From assembly GCF_012689525.1 (NCBI RefSeq), contig NZ_CP051516.1, forward strand, positions 3,658,001 to 3,722,000: a stretch of 64,000 nt of DNA, read 5' to 3'. This DNA comes from Paraburkholderia aromaticivorans. GTDB lineage: Bacteria > Pseudomonadota > Gammaproteobacteria > Burkholderiales > Burkholderiaceae. Under the pieces are notes generated by a model. That model saw only the letters and a list, made by a program, of their open reading frames with translations. It was not told where the DNA came from and ran no database searches. A program made the translations under genes and the position numbers. Positions 5,945 to 9,012 of this stretch are shown one piece after another (the first letter of the stretch is position 1; every line of letters begins with the position of its first letter).

Positions 5945-6976
5945 ATGGCATTTAACGTCACGCTCCGGCAAAGCGGCCGGCAGTTTCAGGTAGAACAGGA
6001 CGAACCGGTGCTGAGCGCCGCCTTGCGCCAGGGTATCGGCCTGCCGTACGGCTGCAAGAACGGCGCCTGCGGTTCGTGCAAGGGCGCCGTGGTCAGCGGC
6101 GAAATCGAGCAGCGGCCCCATTCGTCGTCGGCTTTGTCGAACGACGAAAAGACGCGCGGCATGGCGCTCTTCTGCTGCGCGACCGCCTGCACCGATCTCG
6201 AAGTGGACATCCGCGAAGTGGCGGGCGTCGGCGACGTGCAGGTCAAGAAGCTGCCCTGCCGCGTCAACGCGATCGAGCGCAAGGCCGACGACGTCGTCGT
6301 GCTGAAGCTGCAGTTGCCCGCCAACGAGCGTCTGCAATATCTCGCCGGTCAGTACCTCGAATTCATTCTGAAAGACGGCAAGCGCCGCAGCTATTCGATG
6401 GCGAACGCGCCGCACGCGGAAGGCCCGATCGAATTGCACATCCGTCACATGCCCGGCGGCGCGTTCACCGATCACGTGTTCAACACCATCAAGGAGCGCG
6501 ACATCCTGCGCTTCGAAGCGCCGCTCGGCACGTTTTTCCTGCGTGAAGATTCCGAGAAGCCGATCGTGCTGCTCGCCTCGGGTACGGGCTTCGCGCCGCT
6601 GAAGGCGATCGTCGAGCACGCGGTGTTCAAGAACCTGAACCGGCCGATGACGCTCTACTGGGGCGCACGTCGCAAGAAAGATCTGTATCTGCTCGAACTG
6701 GCCGAACAATGGGCGCGCGAGATCCCGAACTTCAAGTTCGTGCCGGTGCTGTCGGAGCCGGACGCGGGCGACGCATGGACGGGGCGCGTCGGCTTCGTGC
6801 ATCGCGCGGTGATCGAGGATCTGCCGGATCTGTCGGCGTACCAGGTATACGCGTGCGGCGCGCCGGTAATGGTCGAATCGGCGCAGCGCGATTTCACGCA
6901 GCATCACGCTCTGCCGGAAGACGAGTTCTACGCGGATTCGTTCACGAGCGCAGCGGATCTGGCGAACGCGGTTTGA
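5945..6976 (+). CDS. Ferredoxin-reductase-type oxidoreductase (annotated in relatives as CDP-6-deoxy-delta-3,4-glucoseen reductase)
   Basis: A 343-residue fusion of a plant-type 2Fe-2S ferredoxin domain (Cys37, Cys42 and Cys45 in GCKNGACGSCKG, with the fourth Cys at 77 or 78) and a ferredoxin-NADP reductase module. RRSYSMANAP binds the flavin and LLASGTGFAPLKAI binds NAD(P)H. It would pass electrons from NAD(P)H through FAD and the iron-sulfur centre to a partner. The common name comes from AscD-like enzymes of deoxysugar synthesis, but no deoxysugar genes are nearby, so the physiological partner is unknown. Confidence 0.8.
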   Translation: MAFNVTLRQSGRQFQVEQDEPVLSAALRQGIGLPYGCKNGACGSCKGAVVSGEIEQRPHSSSALSNDEKTRGMALFCCATACTDLEVDIREVAGVGDVQVKKLPCRVNAIERKADDVVVLKLQLPANERLQYLAGQYLEFILKDGKRRSYSMANAPHAEGPIELHIRHMPGGAFTDHVFNTIKERDILRFEAPLGTFFLREDSEKPIVLLASGTGFAPLKAIVEHAVFKNLNRPMTLYWGARRKKDLYLLELAEQWAREIPNFKFVPVLSEPDAGDAWTGRVGFVHRAVIEDLPDLSAYQVYACGAPVMVESAQRDFTQHHALPEDEFYADSFTSAADLANAV

Positions 6977-7087
6977 TAGGACACACGGCCTGATCTAGCA
7001 ATCGGTCAGGCCGCTCCCAAACAACGTGTCAGCATGATGGCTGACGCACAAAAATCCGGTTCGACGCCCACCAACGCAAATTCATGG

Positions 7088-7117
7088 TTTACACCAGCGC
7101 TTTCCTTGTCGTATTCT
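7088..7117 (+). promoter_or_regulatory. Predicted sigma-70 promoter of the Arg leader / argD-like transcript
   Basis: TTTACA at 7088-7093, an 18-bp spacer, then TATTCT at 7112-7117. The expected start of transcription is 7124-7126, which coincides with the ATG of the leader peptide at 7125, so the leader may be translated from a leaderless mRNA. Confidence 0.5.
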
Positions 7118-7124
7118 TTCGCGC

Positions 7125-7175
7125 ATGAACCGCATCCAGTCCGAACTTCGACGTCGCCGCTCGCCGCTCCCCTAG
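7125..7175 (+). CDS. Arginine-rich leader peptide of the argD-like gene
   Basis: A 16-codon frame, [16 protein letters not shown], stopping at TAG 7173-7175. Five of 16 residues are Arg, four of them consecutive (CGA CGT CGC CGC, 7149-7160). No Shine-Dalgarno is visible, consistent with a leaderless start at the predicted +1. The peptide lies between the promoter and an intrinsic terminator upstream of an acetylornithine-aminotransferase-family gene, which suggests attenuation by charged Arg-tRNA. The evidence is sequence pattern only. Confidence 0.55.
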
Positions 7176-7179
7176 GGAC

Positions 7180-7247
7180 GCCGCTGGCTTCGTCACGGAT
7201 TCGCGCCACACCAAGGCGCAAGCTGTTCGAATCATGAAAGCCACGGC
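7180..7247 (+). promoter_or_regulatory. Predicted antiterminator and nested hairpin of the arginine attenuator
   Basis: GCCGCTGGCTT at 7180-7190 can pair with AAGCCACGGC at 7238-7247 (ten pairs, one bulged C), which is the 5' arm of the terminator, so the two structures exclude each other. A separate hairpin at 7198-7233 (GATTCG with CGAATC, plus CGCC with GGCG) would bring the antiterminator arms together. A ribosome at the leader stop codon would cover 7180-7190; one stalled on the Arg run would leave it free. Confidence 0.5.
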
Positions 7248-7270
7248 ATGCCGTGGCTTTTCTGTTTTTC
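7237..7270 (+). terminator. Intrinsic terminator (attenuator) between the Arg leader and the argD-like gene
   Basis: A perfect inverted repeat, AAAGCCACGG then CCGTGGCTTT with a CATG loop (7237-7260), followed by the T-rich TCTGTTTTTC. It lies 69 bp before the next start codon and 61 bp after the leader stop, so it can only act on the leader transcript. Confidence 0.8.
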
Positions 7271-7338
7271 CGGCCCCTGGTTTCGTCGTTGGCCAATCTT
7301 CATCCACCCTTCCCCCCCGCTGTCTGGAGCCTGCCGTC

Positions 7339-8523
7339 ATGAATTTCAATGAATATCCGATCGAGTCGCTGATGTACATCACGAACCGGCCCGAAATCGT
7401 TTTCACGCACGGCAAAGGCTCGTGGCTCTACGATAACAACGGCAAGCGATATCTGGACTTCATCCAGGGCTGGGCGGTCAACAGCCTCGGCCATTGCAAC
7501 GACGGCATGATCGAAGCGCTGAACAAGCAGGCCAAGTTGCTGCTCAATCCGTCGCCGGCCTTCTACAACCAGCCGATGGCGCAACTCGCCGGCCTGCTCA
7601 CGCAACACAGCTGCTTCGACAAGGTGTTCTTCGCGAACAGCGGCGCCGAAGCCAACGAAGGCGCGATCAAGCTCGCGCGCAAGTGGGGCAAGAAGTTCAA
7701 GGACGGCGCGTTCGAGATCATCACGTTCGATCACAGTTTCCACGGCCGTACGCTCGCCACCATGTCGGCCAGCGGCAAGCCGGGTTGGGACACGATCTAC
7801 GCACCGCAAGTGCCGGGCTTCCCGAAGGCAGACCTGAACGACATCGCGTCGGTGGAAAAACTCATCAACGCGAAAACCGTTGCCGTGATGCTCGAACCGA
7901 TTCAGGGCGAAGGCGGCGTGATTCCCGCCACGCGCGAATTCATGCAGCAGCTGCGCGATCTGACCAAAAAGCACAACCTGTTGTTGATCGTCGATGAAGT
8001 GCAAAGCGGCTGCGGCCGTGCCGGCACGCTGTTCGCGTACGAACTGTCGGGCATCGAGCCGGACATCATGACGCTCGGCAAGGGCATCGGCGGTGGCGTG
8101 CCGCTCGCGGCGCTGCTCGCGAAAGCGGAGATCGCCATATTCGAGGCGGGCGATCAGGGCGGCACCTACAACGGCAATCCGCTGATGACCGCGGTCGGCT
8201 ACTCGGTGATCTCGCAACTCACCGCGCCGGGCTTCCTCGAAGGCGTGCGGGCGCGCGGCGAGTATCTGCGCGCGAAGCTGCTGGAGTTGTCGGAAGAACG
8301 CGGCTTCTTAGGTGAGCGCGGTGAAGGCCTGTTGCGGGCGCTGCTGCTCGGCAAGGACATCGGCAACCAGATCGTCGAAAAGGCGCGCGACATGCAGCCT
8401 GACGGCCTGCTGCTGAACGCGGCGCGTCCGAACCTGCTGCGCTTCATGCCGGCGCTGAACGTGACGAACGAAGAAATCGACCAGATGATGGCGATGCTGC
8501 GTTCGATTCTCGACACGCTGTAA
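7339..8523 (+). CDS. argD: Acetylornithine aminotransferase family protein
   Basis: A 394-residue class-III PLP aminotransferase. The SGAEANEGA motif (101-109) binds the cofactor phosphate, FDHSFHGRT follows, Asp219 lies in VDEVQSG, and Lys248 in TLGKGIGGG is the predicted Schiff-base lysine. ArgD-type enzymes transfer the amino group from N-acetylornithine to 2-oxoglutarate in arginine synthesis; related enzymes use ornithine, succinylornithine or 4-aminobutyrate, so specificity is not proven. The start at 7339 has a GGAG Shine-Dalgarno nine bases away. The upstream Arg-codon leader supports an arginine-related role. Confidence 0.8.
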
Positions 8524-8541
8524 TCGAATAGGACCGTGCGT

Positions 8542-9012
8542 ATGACGACGAGCGCAACGCTATCGATCCGCCGCTTCGAAGCGAGCGACACCGATGCCGT
8601 GGTCGCACTGTGGCAGGAAGCCTTCCCCGAGTACCGGGACGTGACGAGGCCACAGCGCAACCCGCATCTGTCGATCGCCAACAAGCTGGCGACGCAACCG
8701 GAACTGTTCTTTGTCGCGGTGTTCGGCGAGCGGATCGCCGGCACGGTGATGGGCGGCTACGACGGTCACCGCGGCTGGCTGTATTCGCTCGCGGTGGATG
8801 AATCGCTGCGTCGTCATGGGATCGGCACGCGCCTCGTGGCGCACGTCGAAAACGCACTGACGGAGCGTGGCTGTCCGAAGCTGAATCTGCAGGTGTTGTC
8901 CGCGAAGGCCGACGTGCGCGCGTTTTATGAGGCGCTCGGTTATCGCGCCGATGCGGTGGTCAGTCTTGGCAAGCGTCTGGGTGAATTCGCGGACGCCGTG
9001 CCCGCTGTTTGA
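8542..9012 (+). CDS. GNAT-family N-acetyltransferase
   Basis: A 156-residue single-domain GNAT protein. The acetyl-CoA pyrophosphate loop is seen in VDESLRRHGIGTRLV, and the C-terminal part has LQVLSAKADVRAFYEALGY. It resembles the YpeA group, but the substrate is unknown. The ATG at 8542 is chosen because AGGA at 8530-8533 is properly spaced; a GTG two codons upstream is too close to it. It lies 18 bp after the aminotransferase and is probably co-transcribed with it. Confidence 0.8.
   Translation: MTTSATLSIRRFEASDTDAVVALWQEAFPEYRDVTRPQRNPHLSIANKLATQPELFFVAVFGERIAGTVMGGYDGHRGWLYSLAVDESLRRHGIGTRLVAHVENALTERGCPKLNLQVLSAKADVRAFYEALGYRADAVVSLGKRLGEFADAVPAV

Follow-up and report, generated by a model that had tools for sequence, protein, structure and literature searches.

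A conserved leader-peptide RNA upstream of argD in Burkholderiales, catalogued as the small RNA BcKCsr7, is predicted to be an arginine-codon transcription attenuator

A short RNA that precedes argD, the gene for acetylornithine transaminase, in Paraburkholderia aromaticivorans and its relatives is a real and conserved element and very probably an attenuator of this gene with arginine control codons, a reading for which anatomy and evolution argue strongly. It most likely works as a trp-type, ribosome-mediated transcription attenuator, which would couple argD expression to the supply of charged arginyl-tRNA, and a response to arginine is therefore predicted. The basis for this consists of the anatomy of the element, its pattern of conservation and a predicted base pairing that depends on the position of the ribosome across families. 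The BcKCsr7 RNA was previously known only as a small RNA with no function assigned to it. This RNA was reportedly named Bc_KC_sr7 by Ghosh et al. in 2017.

In Burkholderia cenocepacia J2315 the RNA, listed as RIT34 = nc5U30 = Bc_KC_sr7, is placed on the + strand of chromosome 1 at 2,967,641-2,967,787 and is described as a short RNA expressed in biofilm (PMC10987360), and the accessible text of that report mentions neither a leader peptide nor a link of BcKCsr7/RIT34 to argD. Another study describes 82 5'UTRs that yield short transcripts through processing or attenuation (PMC5688073); nc5U30 is presumably one of these, and argD, acetylornithine, leader peptide and nc5U30 are all absent from the main text as far as it is accessible. 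Likewise, argD goes without mention in the available part of PMC4603805. The initial annotation, made from the sequence of the locus, knew of no described arginine version there. As regards the RNA itself this does not hold, for it is catalogued as RF02884; as regards its function it does, in that a limited and incomplete search of partly accessible literature found neither an arginine attenuator of argD, nor any account of BcKCsr7 as encoding a leader peptide or being controlled by arginine, nor any arginine-dependent measurement on the argD leader.

The locus was read from a 64,000-nt stretch of P. aromaticivorans contig NZ_CP051516.1, the whole of which is called the window here and supplies the coordinates. 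Its features are the following:

7088..7117, + strand: promoter, -35-like TTTACA and -10 TATTCT, 18 nt apart, with 7 nt from the end of the -10 box to the leader ATG
7111..7263, + strand: RF02884 (BcKCsr7, 'Burkholderia sRNA 7'), Rfam match of 146.2 bits, gathering threshold 59, model positions 1-157 of 157
7125..7175, + strand: leader ORF, ATG at 7125, 16 codons, stop TAG at 7173-7175
7149..7160, + strand: putative Arg control codons CGA CGT CGC CGC, in segment 1, read directly
7180..7195, + strand: segment 2, whose partner in predicted folding is the leader-ORF region without a ribosome and the terminator 5' arm with a ribosome on the Arg codons
7198..7233, + strand: hairpin nested inside the antiterminator, from predicted folding
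7236..7266, + strand: intrinsic terminator from a scan, 5' arm 7236-7246, loop 7247-7250, 3' arm 7251-7261, T-rich tail
7326..7329, + strand: GGAG, likely argD ribosome-binding site, read from the sequence
7339..8523, + strand: argD, acetylornithine transaminase, 394 aa, NCBIfam equivalog NF002985, 807 bits, cut-off 568

The promoter is the sole promoter-like match that a scan finds in 6500-9000 (0.4 expected), and RF02884 is the single match over the gathering threshold of Rfam across the 64 kb. The gene downstream, described initially as one of the acetylornithine-aminotransferase family, is argD by its NF002985 score; its start at 7339 was picked from the sequence and from homologues that align from residue 1. 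It has no other close copy in the genome, the next best being a transaminase gene 41% identical (L204), within 300 nt of which no comparable Arg-run leader is seen. The 16-residue peptide with four consecutive Arg codons that had been proposed is present, and so is the perfect terminator at 7237-7260, to which the scan adds one G-T, giving 11 pairs (7236-7261) around a loop of 4. The segment 7180-7190, GCCGCTGGCTT, resembles the terminator 3' arm, GCCGTGGCTT, plus one extra C. Its proposed ability to pair with the 5' arm is borne out by a folding prediction for the RNA that stays uncovered when a ribosome occupies the second Arg codon, in which 7181-7195 pairs with 7235-7246 and the nested hairpin at 7198-7233 is recovered. 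The RNA from 7125 to 7266 has a folding energy of -56.9 kcal/mol (z -2.87), a stability equalled by 0 of 200 dinucleotide shuffles.

Upstream of argD lies a gene (5945-6976) resembling 2Fe-2S ferredoxin/flavin reductases, for which no listed NCBIfam model scores over its cut-off; by eye, the end of such a reductase-like gene also precedes argD in several other genera. Between it and the argD promoter there is an inverted repeat, GTCAGC...GCTGAC, at 7028-7045, which the scan reports as a weak terminator-like site on the minus strand.

The proposed model is that transcription would begin at the leader ATG, or 1-2 nt from it, and that a ribosome would load on the leaderless message. With ample Arg-tRNA, it would pass the CGA CGY run, reach the stop codon and cover part of segment 2, and this partial masking would let the terminator at 7236-7261 form and the short RNA BcKCsr7/RIT34 be released. 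With scarce Arg-tRNA, the ribosome would halt on the run and mask segment 1, so that segment 2 would be free to pair with the terminator 5' arm while the 3' arm is still to be transcribed, and RNA polymerase would enter argD. A start at the ATG, translation of the ORF, ribosome stalling, antitermination and a response to arginine are all expected features of the argD leader.

Of 398 Burkholderiaceae genomes, 240 have a match to RF02884 at E 0.001 (192 above cut-off), spread over 9 of 25 genera, and the attenuation model offers a likely function for this RNA family. It is also matched in 65 of 65 genomes of genus g12, probably Burkholderia. Conservation of the leader frame in relatives had been named as a check on the model, and of the 121 Rfam-matched loci inspected (the window and 120 relatives), 115 have an ORF with an ATG start and successive Arg codons at the same place. 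The other six are two low-scoring matches not before argD (L116, L121) and four loci of genus g10 (L096, L099, L112, L122), from genomes of 3.5-4.2 Mb. An argD homologue, 70-98% identical and on the same strand, begins 34-129 nt past the RNA in 117 of the 120 related loci; two of the three exceptions are low-scoring matches and one lies at a contig end. The terminator 5' arm contains the core GCCACGG in 25 of 25 Burkholderiaceae representatives. Three genomes (G006, G017, G004) have the element though their genera gave no Rfam match; in G016 argD stands directly behind the upstream gene with no leader, and upstream of argD in G015 no leader element was seen.

Some loci show departures from the common form. 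In genus g10 genomes of about 3.9-5.1 Mb (L094, L096, L099, L112) the leader ORF is damaged by loss of an Arg codon, an early stop, a lost ATG or a deletion; behind the damaged Arg run, L094 and L096 retain an open argD, whereas that of L099 is cut short. In genus g3 (L109, L113, L118) the Arg run has shrunk to RRSFR or RRSVR, with promoter spacing and terminator retained. L002 (G000:C3:980341-980393) is a second, short RF02884 match in the genome of the window, of 31 bits and under the cut-off, and is probably due to chance.

The framing of the leader as a Burkholderiaceae element stands as far as its conservation there is concerned and proves too narrow for the architecture, which is found beyond that family too. 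Independently of Rfam, close argD orthologues were collected across the order (65 of 399 genomes at E 1e-160), and 66 of 67 places were analysed, one truncated argD copy with a stop being excluded. A strict rule was applied, which requires an ORF that starts with ATG and contains adjacent Arg codons, a -10 box that precedes this ATG by 6-8 nt, and a terminator lying 40-130 nt downstream of the run; this arrangement occurs upstream of 28 of the 66 orthologues, in 8 of 12 families, and in 0 of 1,980 shuffles. By family, the counts are f1 5/14, f3 2/2, f5 7/8, f8 6/7, f15 1/1, f20 2/2, f21 1/8 and f24 4/4. By the same rule, argD is present with the element undetected in f4 (13), f11 (2), f30 (3) and f39 (2), in 7 of the 8 places of f21 and in all 8 genomes of genus g13, which make up 8 of the 9 misses in f1. 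The rule undercounts, as it missed G009 despite its Rfam match, and G694 (f11) has MHSLFLRRRRIPQHGRRLCVRRRS but the script found no terminator. Outside the order, the leader element was looked for in 5 genomes with a close argD and detected in none.

Constraint is apparent at the level of codons. Changes were counted by parsimony on the argD tree in the 94 of 113 Burkholderiaceae leaders with 8 codons (24 nt) before the run, the remaining 19, with 18, 21, 27 or 33 nt, being excluded. The four Arg codons have undergone 4 changes at their 8 first and second positions and 12 at their 4 third positions, against 76 changes at 14 first and second positions and 55 at 7 third positions in the seven codons preceding the run. 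The Arg codons are therefore not drifting freely, as would speak against the model, and change mainly at synonymous third positions. A script found an ORF and a terminator in 142 of 181 upstream regions, 118 of the 142 leaders being from Burkholderiaceae, and the run is RRRR in 108, RRR in 20 and RR in 14. Leader peptides of other families have little in common besides Arg, and in f5 the Arg residues are scattered.

From these 142, a set of 47 diverged leaders less than 80% alike by gapped alignment was drawn, the members of which are partly dependent on each other at this level of identity. CGA is the first codon of the run in 43 of the 47, and accounts for 3.7% of the Arg codons within the first 900 nt of 113 Burkholderiaceae argD genes. 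The 157 run codons comprise CGC 72, CGA 49, CGT 35, CGG 1 and no AGR, whereas CGG makes up 9.4% of Arg codons in argD. In E. coli, one inosine tRNA reads CGA, CGC and CGU, and it reads CGA slowly. Structure may contribute to the retention of CGA besides decoding: its three bases are predicted to be paired with probabilities of 0.62, 0.89 and 0.64, much like the next six nucleotides (0.67).

The leader message is probably leaderless, with its 5' end at or next to the ATG, because 6-7 nt separate the end of the best promoter match from the ATG in 43 of the 47 diverged leaders (the exceptions are G566, G740, G652 and G734). The promoter scan was blind to the ATG, and for ORFs with several ATGs the choice among them had used the -10 box; in leaders with a single in-frame ATG, the 6-7 nt spacing is found in 27 of 29. 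The published RNA length of 147 nt is roughly compatible with such a start. The evidence for it is the promoter spacing, since the published start (J2315 chromosome 1, 2,967,641) could not be placed on the sequence, there being no RF02884 match at that coordinate among the matches in genus g12. In B. cenocepacia, 72 genes, tRNAs perhaps among them, are reported to begin transcription precisely at their annotated start (PMC4603805), and leaderless starts would therefore be ordinary there.

The measure of switching was the upstream pairing probability of the final 9 nt of the terminator 5' arm in RNA that does not yet contain the 3' arm; in the model, 13 nt separate the A-site codon from the front edge of the ribosome. 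The claim that a ribosome stalled on the Arg run favours the antiterminator agrees with the prediction, as mean upstream pairing in the 47 leaders is highest there: 0.74 with the ribosome on the second Arg codon, 0.34 with it on the stop codon and 0.41 with no ribosome. With a shuffled spacer the stalled ribosome gives a mean of 0.51, and the stalled state exceeds the ribosome-free one by 0.33 (0.01 after shuffling) and the stop state by 0.39 (0.06 after shuffling). Individually, pairing is greater when stalled than without a ribosome in 46 of 47 leaders, and greater than at the stop in 44. Moving the front edge to 10 or 16 nt leaves the stalled mean highest, at 0.65 and 0.74. Along the ORF, pairing peaks at 0.72-0.74 when the A site lies 1-5 codons past the first Arg codon and is down to 0.39 at 8, the plateau spanning the Arg run plus the next two or three codons; an A site on Arg codons gives more pairing than one on other codons in 40 of 47 leaders. 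A cognate spacer and arm give 0.74, and those swapped between leaders of different arm class 0.61 and 0.58. In the window, the claim that a ribosome at the stop allows termination stands in part: antiterminator pairing falls from 0.89 to 0.49, but not to zero.

The signal varies among leaders and families. Taken singly, just 19 of the 47 leaders have an observed value that 5% of shuffles or fewer attain, and in five weak ones (L003, L073, G017, G652, G543) over half of the shuffles do as well. Antitermination pairing without a ribosome and with a stalled one is 0.35 and 0.72 in f1, 0.51 and 0.79 in f5, 0.17 and 0.76 in f8, 0.52 and 0.76 in f3, 0.55 and 0.83 in f20, 0.28 and 0.51 in f15, 0.54 and 0.57 in f21, and 0.78 and 0.75 in f24; in this model, 1:2 sequestration appears to be absent in f24 and hardly seen in f21. 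Other families repeat the antiterminator/terminator geometry in different letters, an outcome that bears on the stem changes proposed for inspection among relatives. The complementary letters, counted with no shuffle control, are GGCCGCA/TGCGGCC, CACGAG/CTCGTG, GCCACGG/CCGTGGC, CAGG/CCTG or CGCGC/GCGCG according to family, and in the Burkholderiaceae genera g11, g24, g12, g14 and most of g25 exact complementarity to the arm extends over no more than 3-4 nt, again with no shuffle control. Taken together, the comparative tests support the interpretation of the argD leader as a trp-type attenuator from sequence and modelled folding.

Equilibrium folding of the full RNA failed as a test of the switch and counts against an attenuator, the terminator being favoured in both states, with a probability of 0.87 even with a stalled ribosome (0.995 in the window) and 0.99 with the ribosome at the stop. 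Because the terminator wins at equilibrium in both ribosome states, the switch must be kinetic. Attenuation in the trp system relies on co-transcriptional kinetics.

The same equilibrium result is what a plain constitutive terminator behind a short ORF, subject to no regulation, would give in the two states tested. That explanation is nevertheless barely credible, as it accounts neither for a dependence on ribosome position that shuffled spacers lack nor for the codon-level conservation of the Arg codons. It could also be argued from the catalogue, where RF02884, Bc_KC_sr7/RIT34, is filed as a small RNA (PMC10987360), that the terminated RNA acts in trans and that the gene downstream is incidental. 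The C/U-rich stretch behind the Arg run would suit such a role, as would the reported decrease of the RNA in C. elegans infection and its increase with organic peroxide (PMC10987360). However, the position of the RNA before argD in 117 of 120 related loci and a conservation that tracks codons and stems make this improbable, and the C/U-rich stretch is, by eye, lost in other families that retain the ORF, the promoter spacing and the terminator. An action of the BcKCsr7 RNA in trans could exist besides attenuation, by analogy with rnTrpL of Sinorhizobium meliloti.

The leader might instead sense another cue, be it the general rate of translation or a nascent peptide that stalls with arginine, ornithine or a polyamine. 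There is precedent in Salmonella speF, where consecutive Arg codons of ORF34 mediate a response to arginine and ornithine also induces the gene (PMC6386406, as far as its accessible text goes), and leaderless genes are said, in a remark, to be regulated differently under stress (PMC4603805). Yet conservation of the peptide between families does not extend beyond the Arg run, and the feature that recurs is Arg codons at the spot where stalling frees segment 2, which leaves a different cue decidedly unlikely and favours attenuation governed by arginyl-tRNA.

As for the physiological place of this attenuation, the arginine repressor family PF01316 scores over its cut-off in 0 of 15 genomes, 13 with the leader and two without (G493, which has a match below the cut-off, and G506), and in 8 of 14 control genomes. 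Attenuation is thus a possible route by which an arginine-biosynthesis gene could be regulated in bacteria without ArgR. A more ambitious version is put forward tentatively, as somewhat likelier to fail than to hold: a leaderless arginine attenuator, widespread in Burkholderiales, would replace the missing ArgR at argD and sense the charging of tRNA-Arg(ICG) alone, with CGA, the slowest codon, as its trigger and a by-product that has been filed as a small RNA. The control run would read this tRNA alone because it starts with the rare CGA (43 of 47), holds CGG once in 157 codons and has no AGR. The argD leader would offer a naturally occurring example of attenuation on a leaderless mRNA, in which a conserved rare CGA predicts the tRNA that is sensed, and the small-RNA lists of these bacteria may hide other leader-peptide attenuators.

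The trp/his-type attenuators of enterobacteria have leader codons for the end product, alternative 1:2, 2:3 and 3:4 pairings and an intrinsic terminator. The argD leader shares with them end-product codons, alternative pairings as predicted by folding, an intrinsic terminator and a gene for the synthesis of the same amino acid, and differs in its amino acid, arginine, in its gene, argD, in a probably leaderless start and in the rare CGA that comes first. It is like trpL/rnTrpL of S. meliloti, whose attenuator RNA is reported to start with the leader ATG and is also counted as a small RNA, unlike which it concerns neither tryptophan nor an alphaproteobacterium with demonstrated trans activity (PMC7298713, accessible text). 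Salmonella speF ORF34 likewise carries consecutive Arg codons in a leader ORF, there for arginine sensing, but is described as acting through Rho and RNase G, with a Shine-Dalgarno sequence, on an ornithine decarboxylase gene in gammaproteobacteria (PMC6386406). Compared by description, carA of Pseudomonas aeruginosa is also an arginine/pyrimidine synthesis gene with a leader peptide in front, but differs by arginine control of transcription together with a possible pyrimidine-linked attenuation (PMC4997734, as far as the accessible text goes). The distinguishing marks of the proposed argD attenuator are a probable leaderless start and a conserved rare first codon.
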